Of a DNA stretch of 64,000 bases, positions 44,678-60,900 are shown piece by piece. The notes beneath the pieces were generated by a model. That model saw only the letters and a list, made by a program, of their open reading frames with translations. It searched no databases and was not told the origin of the DNA. A program made the translations under genes and the position numbers. Within the stretch, counting starts at the first letter, position 1; each line of letters opens with the position of its first letter. Origin of the DNA: Calothrix sp. MO_167.B12 (GTDB lineage: Bacteria > Cyanobacteriota > Cyanobacteriia > Cyanobacteriales > Nostocaceae); NCBI GenBank assembly GCA_030066045.1, contig JASJCJ010000028.1, positions 1 through 64,000 on the forward strand, in the 5' to 3' direction.

Positions 44678-45103
44678 AATAATGGGATTATTGCCCATTA
44701 TCAATGATTTGTGGAGTTTATTGAGCTTTGGGTCTAGCATATACCCAAGAGCGTTTAGCCTTTTATATTGGAAGACGCTCAAGCTAAGTTATTGCTTGCT
44801 CAACAGCAATTATTGGCTAATATTTTCAAGCAGCAGGTTGAAATTTTGTGCATTGATTCAGATTAGGGAACTATAGCTGAAACACCCATAAAATTTGTTA
44901 TAGGAGAAAATATAATTTATATAATTAATTTATACTTCTGTATATACAGTTATCAATCAAACTCTTTCTGTTTTCCAGCAATTGCTGCGAACTGAAAAGA
45001 TCATAGCTAATCCGCACAATTTAGTCCTGCATAGGATTCTTTTTGATGGAGAAGCTTTGAATTTCTAAATCTTAAAGCCTTGGTTTGCTGTTCACGGAGA
45101 CAA

Positions 45104-49260: not shown

Positions 49261-52200
49261 CTACTCCTTTTGAGCAAAATGTTCCTTCAGCGTCTGATGG
49301 ATGAAGATATAGCCACCACCAACTTTTCTTAAAAAGATGCGTTCTGTAGCATAGTCAAGGAAGCGAGCATAGTTCCAGGGAGTATAACCTTGCAACCATA
49401 GAATTACACGCAAAGTGAAGTGTTGAATCAGAACTAACCCAGCAAAAACGGGACCTTTTCCACCCACTAATCCAGCAAGTAACCCAACTGCTAATCCTAT
49501 ACTGATTACTTCATGATTTTGTCCTTTTACATAATTAAGGCTACAAAGCATTCCTACGGGAAAAAAGATTCCAAAGAAAAGACAGGCATTCTTAGCTGAT
49601 CTCCAAACACCCTGGTTAGGAATTATGGTTTGCTCTAGGTTTACTCCTTTGTCCAAAAAACCAATGAGTCCAGGAAGTATTGTGAAGATTAGTAATTCAA
49701 TAAAGATATCAAATAAGTCGTCTAAGTTACCGAGATCATACCTGTTTGAAAAAAGCAGACGAGCTAACACATAAATTGAGCCCCAGATTAGTCCAACTAC
49801 TGAATATTTTATGGCTTTTTCCCACGATGTCTTGATAGTATCAATAATTCCTATTTCTTGGCTTATTAAAGTGAAAAATATGCCCAGAACAAATCCATCA
49901 ATTATTAAAGGAGATATTACCTCCCTCCATTTATAACTTTTTTCAACAATTGCGTAGACCATTGGGGCAGCAATGATTACATATATTAGCCCAGATATTA
50001 GCCCAGACATAACCCCAGGAATAAACCTAGATATGTCCTGGGGTTTGAACCTGTCTCGTATGGCTCTAGGTATAAATCTAGATATGTGCCGAGGTCTAAA
50101 CCTGCGTATAATTCTAGGTATAAAAATAGATAGCACTAGGGAACTCAGACCTGATGCTAAACCTGCTATTACTGAAGGAATCACCAAGGATATCTGTGCT
50201 CCTAAATCAGATGTAACCAGCGTACTAAAGTGTAAGAATGCAATTAGACCAACTATTAGTCCAAGAATAAGTCTAGAACCAATAAGATACATCCGTTTTT
50301 GATTAGTTGTTTGCAACGAATCGTGCTGTATCTGCTCAATTAATAATACTTCTTGAGATTTCTGTATCATTCTCTGAGCCAACCAATTTAGCCAATGAAG
50401 CGATTGCTTTTTTGGATATTTTATTTCTTGGGACTCTTGCTCTTCTTCAAATCTCCGTTCAATATAAGTATCAAGTAAATGATTGCGGCGTTCTGACAAC
50501 GAGTTTATAGGTAATAATTTCTTTTTTCCTTCATAAGCAACAGCAATGATATTTAGAGTTAGAGGACTTTTCACTAATTCTTGTATTGCTTTATCTTCTT
50601 CTTTCAATTCCTTAACTCCTGATAGTGCGTCCCCTGCATCATCAAGATAGCGATTTATTTGCTCTTCTGTAAGTTGTTTATAGAAAACTGCACTTTGTAA
50701 TTGTAGTTTATCCGAGACTTCGTTGTAATCTTGAATTCGACAACAAACAACCATTTCAGTTTTGTCATTTTCTCGAAGAAACTCATTAATTTTTTGGATA
50801 CAAGCTCCTCTTTGACTTTCTCTGACTTCATCTAAACCATCTAAAAGAAGTAGCAACTGCTGATTTCTAACCCAACTTTTACACTGTTCTTTAGAAAACT
50901 GATAAATCCTATTCAGTTCTTGAACTAACCAATCAGCCAAAGGCTTTGTTCGTCTCTCTCCAGCCCAACTAGAAATATTAAGAACTACAGGAATTGGTAA
51001 ATCTGTATTTTGCTTTGCATCCCTAATTAATTCTTGAGCAATTTCTAGAAGTGCTGTAGTTTTACCTGAACCTGGTTCACCAAGAATCAGCATTGTTCTT
51101 TTGTTTTTAAGCTCACCAAATATATCAATCGCTCTAGTTCCTTCAGGTAAGTCTTGCTTTTCTTGATTAGGGTTTTCTCTTTGGTTTGCTGTAACTACAT
51201 CGAAATGTTCCTCTAAGCCTAGTTCAATTACTGCTTTTTCTAGATGTAATGCTTTTTTCAGGATACCTTCAACCCAGTATTTATCTACCTTGTCCAGCAA
51301 ATTTTGGCGAGGATTATTTTGTTTTTTGATATCAATAATTTTGGCATCTATATATCCACGTAATTTCCGCCAAGTAATTTCCTCTTTGGCTAAATTTTGA
51401 TGAATTACTGGTAACCAACTTATTTTTGGTAATTGCTCATTTCTCTCTGGATTCTCTATATAATTTTGTACTTGAATTCGAGCCTGTTGTACAGAACGAT
51501 ATAAAGACAGGCTTCCAGTGAAAAATTCGAGAAAAGATTTCAAAAATTCTTGTGCTATCTTATCAGGAAAAGGTTCTCTCCAAACAATAATTTGAGCAAT
51601 ATCTAAATCTGCTAATTGACGTGCTAATCCTAAACCATCACAAGAATTGAAAATTGCTAATTTCATTCCTTGATATTGGTTAATGGCTGCTTGAATAATT
51701 TCTCTTATTTCTTGAATATCCAGTGTTTCTTCTGCATTCAAATACAGTAACCCGGTATTACTATCTTTATCTGTTTCACTATGTCCAGAAAAAAATAGAA
51801 TATCCCAGCGTTCTTTTTTCATGAACTCGAAGAATTCTAAGCGTGTAGGTTGTCTGAGAAAGACACAATATGCTCCTGATATTTCTCGGAGTAATCGTCT
51901 ATCGGCTTCGACATCAATACCTGTAGTATCTCCTAAAATACATAATATTTTGACTCTTTTTGGTCTTGGTAATGCTGACATTTTTTCAGAATAAATAGAA
52001 TGAAAATGTTCTGAATTACTGAAGGATATAGCAATATCAGCAAAGCAGTTTTCACTAAAAAAAATCCACCAATGCCAAGGTAGTTTTGGCAATATTTGTT
52101 TAGTTGATTCAGAACTAATATTATCTGTGTGGATAACAACATTAATTTCATCTCCAGACTGTATATTAAGTGCTTGTTCTAATTGTTTTCTGACAGGATT

Positions 52201-52278
52201 AAGCCAATAATTCAGTCTTGATCGTAAATCTTCAAAAGCTTTGTTACACTCAGATATATCTCTTATATATTCCGCCAT
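49261..52278 (-). CDS. CHAT-NACHT protein with membrane region (caspase-like, NLR-type)
   Basis: 1005 residues. The CHAT domain covers about 80-300: the catalytic His is in LFFSGHSE (His166) and the Cys in LAIFNSCDGLG (Cys213), the caspase/separase dyad. The NACHT NTPase covers about 350-660: Walker A LILGEPGSGKTT (400-407), Walker B LLLLLDGLDE (475-484), sensor CCRIQDYNEVS and a helical tail. Several hydrophobic segments fill about 660-945, with short internal repeats (DISRFIPG and HISRFIPR). The C-terminus RFLDYATERIFLRKVGGGYIFIH resembles other cyanobacterial NACHT proteins. A membrane-anchored, ligand-triggered protease of a cell-death or anti-phage kind is plausible. Target and trigger unknown; no operon partner on either side. 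Confidence 0.87.
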   Translation of the reverse strand: MAEYIRDISECNKAFEDLRSRLNYWLNPVRKQLEQALNIQSGDEINVVIHTDNISSESTKQILPKLPWHWWIFFSENCFADIAISFSNSEHFHSIYSEKMSALPRPKRVKILCILGDTTGIDVEADRRLLREISGAYCVFLRQPTRLEFFEFMKKERWDILFFSGHSETDKDSNTGLLYLNAEETLDIQEIREIIQAAINQYQGMKLAIFNSCDGLGLARQLADLDIAQIIVWREPFPDKIAQEFLKSFLEFFTGSLSLYRSVQQARIQVQNYIENPERNEQLPKISWLPVIHQNLAKEEITWRKLRGYIDAKIIDIKKQNNPRQNLLDKVDKYWVEGILKKALHLEKAVIELGLEEHFDVVTANQRENPNQEKQDLPEGTRAIDIFGELKNKRTMLILGEPGSGKTTALLEIAQELIRDAKQNTDLPIPVVLNISSWAGERRTKPLADWLVQELNRIYQFSKEQCKSWVRNQQLLLLLDGLDEVRESQRGACIQKINEFLRENDKTEMVVCCRIQDYNEVSDKLQLQSAVFYKQLTEEQINRYLDDAGDALSGVKELKEEDKAIQELVKSPLTLNIIAVAYEGKKKLLPINSLSERRNHLLDTYIERRFEEEQESQEIKYPKKQSLHWLNWLAQRMIQKSQEVLLIEQIQHDSLQTTNQKRMYLIGSRLILGLIVGLIAFLHFSTLVTSDLGAQISLVIPSVIAGLASGLSSLVLSIFIPRIIRRFRPRHISRFIPRAIRDRFKPQDISRFIPGVMSGLISGLIYVIIAAPMVYAIVEKSYKWREVISPLIIDGFVLGIFFTLISQEIGIIDTIKTSWEKAIKYSVVGLIWGSIYVLARLLFSNRYDLGNLDDLFDIFIELLIFTILPGLIGFLDKGVNLEQTIIPNQGVWRSAKNACLFFGIFFPVGMLCSLNYVKGQNHEVISIGLAVGLLAGLVGGKGPVFAGLVLIQHFTLRVILWLQGYTPWNYARFLDYATERIFLRKVGGGYIFIHQTLKEHFAQKE

Positions 52279-55176: not shown

Positions 55177-55647
55177 TCACTCTCCACATCGTTCTACCTT
55201 AAAAATACTTGACGATGGCTTGTTTGCGATCGCATTTTTCCAACCTATTCCAGCTAAAAAGCTATCTCCATCCCTAGTTTCCACCACATCCACGCCCCAT
55301 TCACCTGGTTGTAAGGAATCCGGTGAGGTACTCATTGCTGGGGTGGTTTTTATTCCACCTAAGATTAAAATAGGTGGTAGTTTCTGACCATTTTTAATTT
55401 GCTCGCGACGTAGTGTTACTAAAGCATTTGCATAATATTCTCCCATTTGTGTGGCTGAATATTTATCGGCATCAAATAAAACTTCAACAATCCAATGGGG
55501 ATTATTTACCAATCGACACTCAGCCACATCTTGCAATCCCTCGATAAACACCTGAGCAAATTCCTCCCGACTCAAAGCTGGGAGAATATCCTCAGAAATA
55601 TCAAAGTTATGGGATAGCAGCATTCGCGCTTTGCTCACATTACTCAC
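55177..55647 (-). CDS. Small protein of unknown function
   Basis: 156 residues; begins at GTG 55647 with GAAGG 9 nt upstream. No signal peptide or membrane segment. It has a charged N-terminal helix, then a mixed region, then LPPILILGGIKTTPAM and a short C-terminal tail. I cannot place it in a family. It follows the TetR-family gene by 141 nt on the same strand, so it may be co-transcribed with it and depend on the same signal. Confidence 0.7.
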   Translation of the reverse strand: MSNVSKARMLLSHNFDISEDILPALSREEFAQVFIEGLQDVAECRLVNNPHWIVEVLFDADKYSATQMGEYYANALVTLRREQIKNGQKLPPILILGGIKTTPAMSTSPDSLQPGEWGVDVVETRDGDSFLAGIGWKNAIANKPSSSIFKVERCGE

Positions 55648-55788
55648 AGAGATTTACCTTCAATAGCACCCTCATACAACTTACCATTCCCCAGAGAAGG
55701 AGGGCGAATCATTCCTATCAGGGGAACTTCAACCCAAATTCAAGATATTTATTACATCCATGTATATACAAAAAACAGATCGCTAAAA

Positions 55789-56664
55789 TCAATCAAACTT
55801 TACTCCCCGTGCTAAAGATTCAATTAACTCGCTGCGACTGAGGTTGTTTTTTTGCGCGATCGCATCTAAATTATTCCAAGCAGTATCCGTGAGTCGTAGC
55901 GATCGCAATTTTTTTGATTCTGGATAATCTCGTTTAAATTTACCAGAGCTAGAACGCTTGCGTCGTGAGGATTTTGCTCGAATTGCAGCATATTTATCCC
56001 CATCTTTTTTTTGCCCTCTAACAATCAAATTTACCAAACAATCAACCAATCTTTGCCGTTCCATGGGCATAATTTCCCCAGCTTGCAGCATATACTCAAT
56101 CATGGTGAAATGGACCAGAGCACCCAAAAATATCCGGGTTGTTGCTTCTGGATCGGTGAGTTGTAATTCTGGATGCGATCGTAGATAATGAGTTATAACT
56201 CGAACAACGTCTTTATCTATAGTCCGAACCATATACTGCGCCAGCATGGGAAATCTTCCAGATTCACCAATCATTAAGCGGATTAAATCTAAAAATTCTG
56301 GGGTATCGCTAATATTTTTACTAAATTGATCCAACATATTATTTGCCAAATCGGCTATAACTGTTGCAGGTTCCCCTGGGAATGTTTCCAAATTATGCTG
56401 ATTTATAAATCCTTTGTGACTTGCAATTAAACGTTCAATTAAAGCAATAAATAATTTCTCTTTATCTTGGAAATAACTGTAAATAGTAGTTTTTGAAACA
56501 CCTGCTGCTGCTGTGACTTTATCCATTGTAGTTCCAGCAAAACCATGTGTTAGAAACTCCTGCATTGCCCCCCGTAAAATAGCTTCAACTTTTTCTACAG
56601 GCTGTGAATCATCTAAATGATTATCGCTATTTATTTTTTTAATAATTCTTTTTTTGGCTTTCAT
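55789..56664 (-). CDS. TetR-family regulator with C-terminal ribbon-helix-helix-like extension
   Basis: 291 residues, about 90 longer than typical TetR proteins. The N-terminal HTH domain (about 22-70) has AMQEFLTHGFAGTTMDKV and AAAGVSKTTIYSYFQDKEKL, the usual recognition helix and wing. The ligand-binding helices follow to about 222. A basic linker (SSRRKRSSSGKFKRDY) leads to a C-terminal segment of about 35 residues (LRSLRLTDTAWNNLD followed by NNLSRSELIESLARG) with the strand-helix-helix pattern of RHH DNA-binding folds. It probably represses the devB-like promoter, since a palindromic operator sits there. ATG 56664 has no clear ribosome site. The divergent gene lies 626 bp away. Confidence 0.87.
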   Translation of the reverse strand: MKAKKRIIKKINSDNHLDDSQPVEKVEAILRGAMQEFLTHGFAGTTMDKVTAAAGVSKTTIYSYFQDKEKLFIALIERLIASHKGFINQHNLETFPGEPATVIADLANNMLDQFSKNISDTPEFLDLIRLMIGESGRFPMLAQYMVRTIDKDVVRVITHYLRSHPELQLTDPEATTRIFLGALVHFTMIEYMLQAGEIMPMERQRLVDCLVNLIVRGQKKDGDKYAAIRAKSSRRKRSSSGKFKRDYPESKKLRSLRLTDTAWNNLDAIAQKNNLSRSELIESLARGVKFD

Positions 56665-57205
56665 AATTAATCACTGAAATTAGCAATACCCAGGGAAAAT
56701 TATTTTCAAATCATCTTTTTCGCCTGTTACACCTCTTAATTTTATATGGCGCACTATGCCAACAAAAATCAATCTATTAAACAATGAGTGGGATGGATAT
56801 CCTTGCTCGTCAACTGTACTCGACAAAAATGAAATCTGCTGTGTCTCTACCAGCATCCCATGTATTACACATTATTTCTATCATAACTCTCATAGTGGTC
56901 TGTCCCATTAATTTTGATGGTTAATTGTAGTGGGAGCGTCTCGCTCCCTGCTGTAAGGAAGCCGCACTACATCTGTCCTTCATGTCTAACGCGCTCTTTG
57001 CACCTAAAGCCCTACGGGCATGGCTGAGTATAAAGCACACGCTGCACGTTAACGTAGTTCCTCTGTTGGCGCAGCCGCCCTGCAAGGGCTAAGAGGCACG
57101 CTAATGTGTTCTTCACTTCTCAGAACTAATGCGATAGAGCACTAGAGGCGCATCTGTGGGTGAAATAAATTCATACCTGAATTCAGCAATGCCAAAACAA
57201 ACATC
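56665..57205. other. Intergenic region between the TetR gene and the devB promoter
   Basis: Occupied largely by the 252-bp element at 56894-57145 and, next to it, a GTGAAATAAATTCATACCTG block (57160-57190) also seen near 28271-28305 and 58739-58770. No gene. Confidence 0.5.
56894..57145. repeat. 252-bp MITE-like element, relative of 120-339
   Basis: Left end TAGTGGTCTGTCCCATTAATTTTGA; right end read on the other strand is CTAGTGCTCTATCGCATTAG. About 24 bp are imperfectly inverted. Its inner half contains TGGGAGCGTCTCGCTCCC, shared with 186-300. Confidence 0.6.
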
Positions 57206-57270
57206 TTGACAAAACGAACTAGACTGTTTAGTTTAGTAAATATGGACTAAACGATTTAGTTTACTAGTAA
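57206..57270 (+). promoter_or_regulatory. devB-like promoter with TetR-type operator
   Basis: The -35 box TTGACA is at 57206-57211 and a -10-like TAGTTT at 57229-57234 with 17-bp spacing. A perfect inverted repeat ACTAAA-CGA-TTTAGT lies at 57246-57260, and TTTAGT repeats at 57227-57232 and 57232-57237 overlap the -10. A second perfect palindrome, TTACTAGTAA, is at 57261-57270. The cluster covers the promoter and start region, as expected for TetR repression. The ribosome site AGAGGGG precedes ATG 57290. Confidence 0.75.
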
Positions 57271-57289
57271 CTTACCGTAGAGGGGAATT

Positions 57290-58600
57290 ATGGTACTCGG
57301 TACATCTGTAAAAGGCTTCATCCTGGATAGAATCAAGTCTCGACAAGTTACTATCTTTGGCATTGCAACGAGTCTTGCATTGGGTGGGGTATTATTATCT
57401 CAAGTTTTCCAGAACCAAGTATTACAAACAAAACAAGAGCAGCAGATAGTTATCCCTGAAATTAAGACGGTGACAGCCTTAGGTAAACTGGAGCCAGAAG
57501 GGGAAGTGATTAAAATTGCTGCATCCTCATCGAGTCAAGGAGGACAAGGGAATAAAATAGACAAGCTATTAGTCAAGGAAGGGGAAGAGGTAAAAGCAGG
57601 GCAGGTAATTGCTGTTTTGGATAATAGTAACAAACTCCAAGCAGCGTATGAAAAAGCGAAGGAAGCAGTAGGAATTGCCAAAGCTAATTTAGCGAAAGTT
57701 AAAGCAGGTGCAAAAAATGGAGAAATTAACGCTCAAAAAGCGGAAATTGCCAGGATTCAAGCACAATCCCTAGGTGAGTCAAGAGCACAACGGGAAACCT
57801 TAGCAAGATTAGAAGCGCAGTGGGAAGGGGATAAAGCTACACAGAAAGCAACTATTAGAAGATTGGAAGCTGAATTGAATAATGCTCAATCGGAATTTAA
57901 TCGCTATGAGAAGTTATATAAAGAGGGTGCAATTTCTCAATCTGATTTTGATAGTAGACATTTGAAAGTAGATACTGTTGTCCAACAATTAAATGAAGCT
58001 AAGGCGACTTTACAACGAACAAAAAGAACAGGAAATAGGCAAATTCAAGAAGCAAAAGCTGTTCTCAATCGGATTCAAAATGTGAGTAGTCAACAAATTA
58101 ATTCAGCTCAAGGAACGCTGAATAAAATTACTGAAGTTCGTCCGGTAGATGTGGAAGCAGCGCAAGCTGAATTAAGACAAGCGGTAGCATCAGCGAAAGA
58201 AGCAAAAGCTAATTTTGACCAATCTTTTATTAAAGCACCCAAAGAGGGTGTAATTTTGAAAATCAATAATTATCCTGGTGAAAAAGTTTCTGATGATGGG
58301 ATTGTTGAGTTAGGACAGGTGAACAATATGATGGTATTAGCTGAAGTTTACCAAACTCATATTAATAAAATAAAAGTAGGTCAAAATGTGCGTGTAAAAA
58401 GTAATTCTCTAGCTGATGAGTTACAGGGTAAGGTGGATTTTATTGGTTGGCAAATACAACGACAAAATGTGATTAATGCCGATCCCAGTGAAAATATAGA
58501 TGCTAGGGTTGTAGAGGTTCGAGTTCGGTTGAATAAGGAATCTAGTCAAAAAGCTGCTAAGTTTACTAATTTGCAGGTTAAGGCAGTGTTTGAATTATAA
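57290..58600 (+). CDS. devB: DevB-like periplasmic adaptor (membrane fusion protein)
   Basis: 436 residues. An N-terminal membrane anchor (about 20-42) leads to a lipoyl/beta-barrel half (ITALGKLEPEGE-type region, TVTALGKLEPEGE near 62-75) and a long alpha-helical hairpin, about 100-300, rich in Ala/Gln/Glu/Lys. The second lipoyl half (APKEGVILKINNYPGEKV) and a beta-barrel domain follow. This is the HlyD/DevB architecture. In Nostoc, DevB works with DevC and DevA and a TolC-like outer channel to export heterocyst glycolipids; several paralogs are usual, so the substrate here is open. First gene of the operon with ATG 57290, controlled by the operator just upstream. Confidence 0.9.
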   Translation: MVLGTSVKGFILDRIKSRQVTIFGIATSLALGGVLLSQVFQNQVLQTKQEQQIVIPEIKTVTALGKLEPEGEVIKIAASSSSQGGQGNKIDKLLVKEGEEVKAGQVIAVLDNSNKLQAAYEKAKEAVGIAKANLAKVKAGAKNGEINAQKAEIARIQAQSLGESRAQRETLARLEAQWEGDKATQKATIRRLEAELNNAQSEFNRYEKLYKEGAISQSDFDSRHLKVDTVVQQLNEAKATLQRTKRTGNRQIQEAKAVLNRIQNVSSQQINSAQGTLNKITEVRPVDVEAAQAELRQAVASAKEAKANFDQSFIKAPKEGVILKINNYPGEKVSDDGIVELGQVNNMMVLAEVYQTHINKIKVGQNVRVKSNSLADELQGKVDFIGWQIQRQNVINADPSENIDARVVEVRVRLNKESSQKAAKFTNLQVKAVFEL

Positions 58601-58973: not shown

Positions 58974-60149
58974 ATGCTGGGATTAATTCAAAAAATTCAA
59001 CGTCGTACCCCCTTGGGTTGGTTACAACTTACCCGTCACAAAGGACGATTTATTGTTGCACTTTCAGGAATTGCCTTTGCTGACATTCTCATGTTTATGC
59101 AGCTTGGTTTTCAAAGTTCACTTTATGATAGTAATACTAGTCTTAATCGTGAAGTGCTTGCAGATATTGTTTTAATTAGTTCTCAAGCTAAAAATACTCA
59201 AAATTTATCGACATTTCCTCGAAATAGATTATTGGAAGCATCCGACGTACCGGGGGTGAAAGCATCTGAACCCATGTATATTGGTATGGTTTCTTGGAGA
59301 AATCCACAAACACGAAAAAAAGTTCAGATACAAGCAATTGGATTTAATCCTGAAATACCTGCTTTAAATATACCTGAGGCTAACGCTCAACTCGATAAAA
59401 TTCAATTACCGGACAGGTTTTTATTTGATAAAGCCGCAAGAGGAGAATATGATCAAGTTTTTGCTCAAGTAGAAGCGGGAGAAGAAGTATCTACAGAAAT
59501 AGGTAGACGAACTATTACTGTCAATGGATTGTTTAAATTTGGTGCTTCCTTTGCTGCGGATGGTTTATTACTCTCCAGTGATGATAATTTTTTACGCTTG
59601 TTTCCTTCACAAAAAGCAAGCAGTGTCAATGTTGGTTTAATTTATCTAAAACCGGGATATGACCCTCTTCAAGTTGTCAATCAACTAAAAGCTCATTTAC
59701 CAGATGATGTCAAAGTTCTTACTAATAAAGAATTTATTCAATTTGAATTAGATGTACTTACTAAAGAAAGTCCAATTGCTTTTGTTTTTGGTTTTGGTGT
59801 AGCTATGGGGTTTTTTATTGGTGTAATTATTGTTTATCAAATTCTTTCAACGGATGTAAACTCTCATTTAAAAGAGTATGCCACATTCAAAGCAATGGGT
59901 TATGGAAATAATTATTTATTAGGAATCATTTTTGAAGAAGCACTTATTATTGCTGCCATTGGATTTATCCCAGGATTTTTTATTCCCTTAGGATTATATG
60001 CTGTAGCGGCGACTGCAACAAGTTTGCCTATATATATGACAGTTGAAAGAGCTATTACTGTATTTATTTTAACTGTAATATTGTGCGGAATATCGGGAGC
60101 GATCGCAACTCAAAAATTACAATCAGCTGACCCTGCTGATATGTTTTAA
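58974..60149 (+). CDS. devC: DevC-like ABC transporter permease
   Basis: 391 residues. The N-terminal cytoplasmic helix (RTPLGWLQLTRHKGRF) precedes the first transmembrane helix (about 28-48), a large periplasmic domain (about 50-260), then three helices (about 262-385) with IAFVFGFGVAMGFFIGVIIVYQ. This is the MacB/DevC layout with four helices and a big extracytoplasmic domain. It partners with the adjacent ATPase (34 nt downstream) and the DevB-like adaptor. Substrate unknown. ATG 58974, no clear ribosome site. Confidence 0.92.
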   Translation: MLGLIQKIQRRTPLGWLQLTRHKGRFIVALSGIAFADILMFMQLGFQSSLYDSNTSLNREVLADIVLISSQAKNTQNLSTFPRNRLLEASDVPGVKASEPMYIGMVSWRNPQTRKKVQIQAIGFNPEIPALNIPEANAQLDKIQLPDRFLFDKAARGEYDQVFAQVEAGEEVSTEIGRRTITVNGLFKFGASFAADGLLLSSDDNFLRLFPSQKASSVNVGLIYLKPGYDPLQVVNQLKAHLPDDVKVLTNKEFIQFELDVLTKESPIAFVFGFGVAMGFFIGVIIVYQILSTDVNSHLKEYATFKAMGYGNNYLLGIIFEEALIIAAIGFIPGFFIPLGLYAVAATATSLPIYMTVERAITVFILTVILCGISGAIATQKLQSADPADMF

Positions 60150-60183: not shown

Positions 60184-60900
60184 ATGAGCCAATATTTGAC
60201 ACAAAAGCCAGCTATTTCTATCCAAAATCTCAATCATTATTTTGGTAAGGGTCAACTGCGAAAACAGGCTTTATTTAATATTAACCTGGAAATACAAGCA
60301 GGTGAAATAATTATTATGACAGGACCATCTGGTTCTGGGAAAACAACCCTGTTAACGATTTGTGGTGGCTTGCGTTCTGTTCAGGAAGGCAGTGCAAAGG
60401 TATTAGGAAAAGAATTATGTGGTGCTTCTGCAAAGCAGCTAACAGTTGCTAGGCGCAACCATGGTTATATTTTCCAAGCACACAACTTACATGGTAGTTT
60501 GACTGCACTGCAAAATGTGAAAATGGGTTTAGAAATTCATTCCCATATTTCTACTCCAGAAATAGACAAACGAGCCGTGGAAATGCTGGAATTAGTGGGA
60601 TTAGGAAATCGAATTAATTATTATCCCGATGACTTATCAGGGGGACAAAAACAAAGGGTAGCCATAGCGCGGGCACTCGTTAGTCAACCAAAGATTGTTT
60701 TAGCAGATGAGCCGACTGCTGCACTCGATAAAAAATCGGGACGTGATGTAGTGGATTTAATGCAAAAATTAGCTAAACAACAAGGTTGCACTATTTTGTT
60801 AGTCACCCACGATAACCGCATTCTCGATATTGCTGACCGAATTGTTTATATGGAGGATGGAAAATTAGCTACTCAACCAGAAACGGTGCAGATTTCTTAA
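60184..60900 (+). CDS. devA: DevA-like ABC transporter ATPase
   Basis: 238 residues. Walker A MTGPSGSGKTTLL is near 45-57, the Q-loop at GYIFQAHNL, signature [15 protein letters not shown] near 148-162, Walker B IVLADEPTAALD near 170-181, and the H-loop LLVTHDN. It powers the DevC-type permease at the plasma membrane. It resembles the lone ATPase at 24172-24918 in type, but here the permease and adaptor are present. ATG 60184 follows the DevC gene by 34 nt. Confidence 0.93.
   Translation: MSQYLTQKPAISIQNLNHYFGKGQLRKQALFNINLEIQAGEIIIMTGPSGSGKTTLLTICGGLRSVQEGSAKVLGKELCGASAKQLTVARRNHGYIFQAHNLHGSLTALQNVKMGLEIHSHISTPEIDKRAVEMLELVGLGNRINYYPDDLSGGQKQRVAIARALVSQPKIVLADEPTAALDKKSGRDVVDLMQKLAKQQGCTILLVTHDNRILDIADRIVYMEDGKLATQPETVQIS

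Follow-up and report, generated by a model that had tools for sequence, protein, structure and literature searches.

AefR-like TetR regulators (TetR_C_7), FrrA and MexL among them, share the TetR_N and TetR_C_7 domains with the fusion described here and, like it, lie divergent from an exporter operon; FrrA (6g87/6g8g) and 8wrf (MexL) were among its nearest sequence and fold matches. The fusion differs from these regulators in an extra linker with a ribbon-helix-helix (RHH) module and in a candidate second site 3′ of its gene. The same strand-helix-helix module, predicted here, is that of the RHH/CopG (MetJ/Arc) repressors, and the candidate motif precedes the genes of its stand-alone relatives that share the ribbon, whereas in the fusion the module forms another repressor's tail and the candidate site lies 3′ of the gene. 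The RHH gene of cyanobacterial Tn3-type elements (L182, L183, and L140) encodes a similar RHH segment and linker and comes with the same motif or close copies; unlike the fusion, it encodes a stand-alone protein, has its sites upstream, and lies beside a Tn3-type transposase gene. Lambda integrase combines two different DNA-binding domains in a single protein and bridges sites of two kinds; the likeness is in working principle only, as it is a recombinase and not a repressor. Mce3R, the double TetR repressor of Mycobacterium tuberculosis, likewise has two DNA-binding parts in one TetR-type chain, but both are TetR-type HTHs that bind inside one asymmetric operator (PMC11667970); in the fusion, the two folds differ and the candidate sites are on opposite sides of the gene. 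The open-access literature searched (titles and starts of abstracts) described no TetR-RHH fusion, no RHH protein in cyanobacterial Tn3 elements, and no pairing of a second DNA-binding module with a conserved site behind the gene.

The window, i.e., the whole 64,000-nucleotide stretch of Calothrix sp. MO_167.B12 DNA that was analysed, encodes the fusion protein with the following predicted parts:

55789–56664, minus strand: tetR-RHH fusion gene, 291 aa, of a conserved fusion family
56440–56580, minus strand: TetR_N DNA-binding domain, residues 29–75 (Pfam PF00440, E 1.8e-15)
56023–56304, minus strand: TetR_C_7 (AefR-like) ligand/dimer domain, residues 121–214 (Pfam PF14246, E 7.1e-10)
55918–56013, minus strand: basic linker, residues 218–249 (alignment; model confidence low)
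55807–55917, minus strand: RHH module, residues 250–286 (alignment, models, structure comparison, and Pfam on relatives)

The 291-aa protein exceeded the curated Pfam cut-offs for PF00440 (56.9 bits, cut-off 24) and PF14246 (39.3 bits, cut-off 22), the latter in agreement with the fold matches. The tail of the window protein alone matched RHH_4 and RHH_1 at E 0.0017 and 0.0089, under the curated cut-offs; among 37 aligned tails and relatives, RHH_4 was matched at E<=0.1 by 33 and RHH_1 by 31, the best RHH_1 match reaching 1.4e-7. A full-length AlphaFold2 model based on 39 aligned rows gave a fair TetR body and two tail helices (260–272 and 277–285; ten-residue means 75–82), with residues 218–256 nearly throughout of low confidence, and the tail modelled by itself gave the same two helices (block means 84–94). 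The ribbon strand was absent from the monomer model, which is to be expected for a domain that requires two chains. Foldseek with the tail returned nothing at E<=0.001, and the 50 matches listed for the whole model all fell on the TetR body and are uninformative about the tail. In a second structural comparison with 26 chains, the best Z was 3.8, which is low; most of these chains are RHH proteins (PutA, Arc, AtaR, CopG, AmrZ, and ParG).

The RHH part was among the most uniform stretches of the fused proteins, with K251, R254, S255, R257, L258, T259, W263, R277, and E279 invariant in the 39 aligned rows (L012 left out; two sequences present twice, L010/L081 and L011/L087). Median dN/dS values were 0.10 (RHH segment), 0.16 (TetR body), and 0.18 (linker), rough figures given the few codons (37 in the RHH segment; 13 usable of 14 pairs each for RHH and TetR body, the duplicates L010/L081 and L011/L087 included). 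L253, S255, and R257 are the predicted DNA-facing ribbon residues, by analogy with Arc. By its sequence, then, the ORF is an AefR-like TetR protein followed by a basic linker and a predicted RHH segment at about residues 250–286. This is what the first-pass annotation had described, and Pfam, the models, and conservation across the 39 rows bear it out. It had also counted a disordered tail as evidence against an RHH fold; on this point the outcome is mixed, AlphaFold2 having predicted disorder for the linker and not for the two helices.

The homologues collected, fused and unfused, were nearly all cyanobacterial, and the fusion, as judged from these predicted proteins, is a conserved family of filamentous cyanobacteria. 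In the first set of fused loci, duplicates included, devB adjoined the regulator on the opposite strand in 42/42; a divergent devB was present in 25 of 27 loci checked from the second set, the remaining two being tetR fragments. The corresponding genes in the window were as follows:

57290–58600, plus strand: devB-type membrane fusion protein (NCBIfam TIGR02971, above cut-off)
58974–60149, plus strand: devC permease (NCBIfam TIGR01185, above cut-off)
60184–60900, plus strand: devA ATPase (NCBIfam TIGR02982, above cut-off)

A 99-row TetR tree required two changes between fused and unfused, as for one gain and one loss, the apparent loss being L094 (Fischerella muscicola), which is tail-less within the fused clade. 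A devB match beside the regulator was absent from L094 as well. At locus L044 (G016), what is left of a fused tail has decayed and contains stop codons, and fragments of devB lie next to it. Nine of ten genomes with a fused gene also had an unfused homologue, and the Calothrix genome itself encodes an unfused paralogue that is divergent from its own devB. Downstream of the fusion, a 156-aa ORF (55177–55647) had no NCBIfam match and was found at the same place among the fetched loci only in L008, L066, and L067. A 1005-aa ORF (49261–52278), in which reading by eye showed hydrophobic stretches towards the C-terminus and a P-loop motif (LGEPGSGKT), looks like a NACHT-type protein.

The devB promoter contains the candidate TetR operators:

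57206–57211, plus strand: TTGACA, −35-like hexamer ahead of the operators (sequence)
57218–57232, no strand: TetR operator 1, ACTAGACTGTTTAGT, 13/14 (score hand-counted)
57246–57260, no strand: TetR operator 2, ACTAAACGATTTAGT, 13/14 (score hand-counted), with a further half-site, GTTTACT, to 57265

Pairs of ACTAAAC-N-GTTTAGT sites were common to fused and unfused devB promoters. With L017 left out and loci with identical stretches dropped, the best site scored at least 11/14 in 38/38 fused and at least 12/14 in 47/47 unfused promoters, and shuffles reached a score of 12 in 0.5% (fused) and 0% (unfused). A second site scoring at least 10 lay within 60 bp in 37/38 fused and 42/47 unfused promoters. 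The best site was a perfect 14/14 in 2/38 fused versus 30/47 unfused promoters, kinship being ignored in this comparison; the unfused paralogue of the Calothrix genome has operators of 14/14 and 13/14. TTGACA was present in 35/35 anchored fused promoters (35 of 38 were anchorable, by a pattern that itself requires TTGAC). Because ACTAAAC-N-GTTTAGT also stands at the promoters of unfused homologues, which lack the RHH module, we assign it to the TetR domain. The wider spacing ACTAAAC-N6-GTTTAGT, which to the eye had appeared to replace N1 in fused promoters, was considered as a mark of the RHH tail and rejected, as both spacings (N1 and N6) were counted in both groups. The first-pass annotation had seen two kinds of palindrome at 57246–57270 and linked them to the two folds of the protein. 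The stretch consists of one TetR operator of the ACTAAAC-N-GTTTAGT type with an extra half-site, and it belongs to the TetR part, since unfused homologues share the sites (47/47 at 12/14 or better). That one chain has two operator types is likely, but the evidence does not support these palindromes as the two types. The original observation was right and its interpretation half right.

The candidate RHH site likely lies 3′ of the gene and not at the promoter palindromes:

55758–55770, minus strand: candidate RHH site, TGTATATACATGG, 18 bp 3′ of the stop codon

The motif was first noticed upstream of the transposon RHH gene L042/L140 and was afterwards tested at the fused loci. A search of 142 loci for the decamer TGTATATACA gave matches only in fused loci and in the L042/L140 element. 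After removal of duplicates with identical stretches, 31 of 39 distinct fused loci had this core no more than 300 bp 3′ of the stop codon, as did 0 of 60 unfused loci; shuffled flanks gave 0.025 loci, and no other 10-mer was present in more fused 3′ flanks than the decamer and its overlaps (31 loci). The decamer occurred in 25/33 fused clusters at 90% identity. Related fused loci are not independent: 70% identity left eight clusters, seven with the site in some member and four in all. Among 48 aligned copies, selected as departing from the decamer at no more than one of its ten positions, the three columns not used for the selection were T in 45, G in 48, and G in 46, and the best flank column reached 37/48; the conserved columns thus extend to TGTATATACATGG between ordinary flanks, with GG pointing away from the gene. 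In the sequences compared, the 13 bp are strictly conserved just 3′ of most fused genes. Of the 31 fused loci with the site, 22 had the first copy 0–21 bp beyond the stop codon and nine had it 31–179 bp away. The exact decamer was missing in 8/39 fused loci, one of which had a single mismatch and four of which form the V253 clade (one evolutionary event). In the stretches examined, no exact decamer was found in front of the 39 fused genes or within them, and there was none in the 5.5 kb examined at the unfused paralogue of the Calothrix genome.

The 13-mer occurred once in the whole Calothrix genome (7.66 Mb), at this position, and a reversed control pattern also occurred once; as the control is equally frequent, position and not number carries the case for the site. 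In 198 genomes, there were 74 copies of the 13-mer and 18 of the reversed control. Fifty-four of the 74 lay within 600 bp of a tail, counted against the best 59 tail matches, and 20 elsewhere; of the 54, 50 were 3′ of the tail in the same orientation and four were 5′ of stand-alone genes. The exact 13-mer was found 3′ of 37/50 tail-bearing genes of the second set and was absent in 13/50 (these 50 were taken as fused; three had open frames below 240 aa, and the TetR match was confirmed in 27, L146–L172). The gene downstream of the fusion varied among loci and lay on either strand, which indicates that the site goes with the fused gene, and an operator of the downstream gene was rejected on the same grounds. 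An NtcA site was also rejected, the motif having GTA-N2-TAC and the consensus being GTA-N8-TAC (PMC6161253). A decamer at 44939–44948 of the window was considered as a second target and discarded, as it is not part of the single-copy 13-mer. As a string of letters, the decamer appeared in the open-access literature searched only in a paper on two green algae.

Presence of the site varied with ribbon residue 253, a position that would face the DNA if the ribbon lies as in Arc. Fused genes with L253 had the site in 28/32 cases and those with V253, all of one clade, in 0/4; the four 3′ flanks of the V253 clade had no 8-mer or longer in common that could serve as an alternative motif. Close copies of the motif also preceded L048 and L198, two more stand-alone RHH genes, whose ribbon reads LRSxRL; for L048 the ribbon had informally led us to expect this. 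The motif was not found upstream of stand-alone RHH genes with another residue at 253, namely L050 (M), L061, and L065 (V), nor, as far as these were parsed, upstream of the KRGVML group or the PAS-protein group; L005, L006, L052, L058, L063, L064, and L201 were excluded from this comparison. The exact decamer occurred in 1/31 control loci (L198).

The stand-alone tail relative L042/L140 (G036:C355) is the gene immediately ahead of a Tn3-type transposase gene. Three TGTATATACA palindromes closely precede this RHH gene, and the opposite end of the contig has three more. The module was carried by three kinds of Tn3-type element: L140; L174–L177, which are remnants; and L182/L183/L185, of which L182 and L183 are plasmids of Gloeothece PCC 7424 and PCC 7822. 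The Tn3 transposase of L182 is annotated; L183 has none annotated, and its transposase was found by tblastn. The end sequences of the three kinds matched one another nowhere at E<=1e-3, and transposase identity between L140 and the L182/L183/L185 type was only about 26–30%; for the RHH proteins, identity between L140 and the two Gloeothece plasmids was 75–78%. The motif or a close copy preceded the RHH gene of Tn3-type elements (CCATGTATATACT in L182, L183, and L185), and in L140, L182, and L183 the motif or close copies stood at both element ends. Compared with its orientation at fused loci, the motif was reversed at transposon and stand-alone RHH genes, where it lay upstream. The RHH gene and the end repeats probably form a repressor-operator system of the transposon, and a site beside inverted repeats could serve transposition. 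Repeats of the CCATGTATATAC or ATGTATATACAT type were present at both ends of L140, L182, and L183, and the elements in L140 and L182 contained a tyrosine recombinase gene.

The RHH segment and linker of L042 were 70–74% identical to the nearest fused tails. In the alignment, the linker motif of the fused proteins, KSxRRKR..SGKF..DY, is largely common to the transposon RHH proteins, which have YSGTxxKSPRR or similar, GKF or GSF, and DY. An unrooted tree of 69 columns separated 37 fused from five transposon-type tails on one branch (98/87). Transfer from the transposon to the repressor is likely, being the simpler reading of these sequences on a tree without a root. Outside fused genes, 388 genomes of the class contained one more near-identical transposon-type copy (G460), along with weaker, more distant RHH matches. 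Behind the 39 fused genes, nothing of the transposon ends was found beyond the motif, save a 13-bp match in L085. The 3′ flank in the window (L007) had no transposon-end match beyond the motif, the neighbouring window genes scanned included no transposases, and the viral contigs scanned had no relative of the transposon RHH protein.

More distant relatives of the segment occurred in large PAS/GAF sensor proteins and in coiled-coil proteins. The PAS/GAF sensors (L051–L054, L056, L057, L197, L199, L201, and L202) had an RHH module of related type at the N-terminus; all six examined in Pfam had PAS and RHH_1 matches, the latter above cut-off in five. A conserved palindrome, CCGTNTAYGYATACG, lay close upstream of the start codon in 10/10 PAS/GAF regions, so these proteins may bind DNA too, which suggests DNA-binding sensors with a self-operator. 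The coiled-coil proteins (L058, L063, and L064; 375–521 aa) had an RHH-like segment at the start. Occurrence of the segment in proteins that do not bind DNA had been raised as an argument against a DNA-binding tail; the segment does extend to other protein classes, and all ten PAS/GAF regions have the upstream palindrome.

Module and motif are found together in more than one kind of setting, which makes the tail the likely reader of the site. With moderate confidence, and from sequence comparisons, we regard the protein as a TetR repressor of the divergent devBCA that has a transposon-type RHH module in the same chain and bridges its own gene. The TetR dimer would bind the ACTAAAC-N-GTTTAGT pair and repress devBCA (and itself), and the two tails of the dimer would pair into one RHH dimer on TGTATATACA. 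As the TetR and RHH sites flank the regulator's own gene, the protein could bridge both. Such a bridge would close a loop, steady repression, and tie the regulator to its own locus, adding avidity to the imperfect TetR operators and an address that the unfused paralogue lacks. The distance from the TetR site to the 3′ site was 881–1753 bp (median 1004, n = 30; 1487 in the window), which would be a workable loop length, looping being proposed from this geometry only. More tentatively, the repressor domain of the transposon and its cognate site may have been domesticated together, the protein clamping both ends of its own gene and the site, single in the genome, acting as an address label among paralogues whose operators are nearly identical.

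The main rival reading is that the tail binds the 3′ site and acts only there, as a roadblock to read-through from or into the gene or as a local anchor. We consider this possible, though rather unlikely. The first site follows the stop codon within 21 bp in most of the 31 fused loci that have it, many downstream genes are convergent, and a simple terminator scan found no hairpin terminator in 55600–57300 of the window; against these points, in 9/31 loci the site is displaced by up to 179 bp, downstream genes lie on both strands, and a roadblock gives no reason for placing the tail on a regulator whose TetR sites flank the other end of the gene. It seems doubtful that the decamer is left over from the transposon end which brought in the module, with the tail now only a dimer or tetramer helper. 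The subterminal position of the motif in Tn3-type elements and the linker common to fused tail and transposon protein would fit a relic, yet apart from the L085 match the 39 fused 3′ flanks retain no transposon end beyond the motif, the 13 bp are nearly invariant nonetheless, and S255 and R257 are unchanged in all 39 rows.

Action of both domains at the devB promoter palindromes, the version proposed in the first-pass annotation, now appears very improbable. Many fused promoters do have extra GTTTA half-sites 5 bp further out than the TetR operators, but unfused paralogues have the same half-sites at 1-bp and 6-bp spacing, and in the stretches examined the exact decamer was absent from the upstream regions and interiors of the 39 fused genes. 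A role as an RNA element in the 3′ untranslated region of tetR would explain the fixed orientation of the 3′ motif relative to the gene; it is hardly credible for a motif that, at transposon and stand-alone RHH genes, is upstream and inverted and that L140 has at both ends.

If the bridging reading is true, the fusion would represent a bacterial repressor in which each of two unrelated DNA-binding folds has an identifiable site of its own. The unfused paralogue in the same genome, the V253 clade without the site, and the stand-alone transposon forms provide natural controls. The family would then be an example of a regulator that gains locus specificity by capturing a domain of a mobile element together with its target, and would show how paralogous regulators could stay distinct although their operators are the same.
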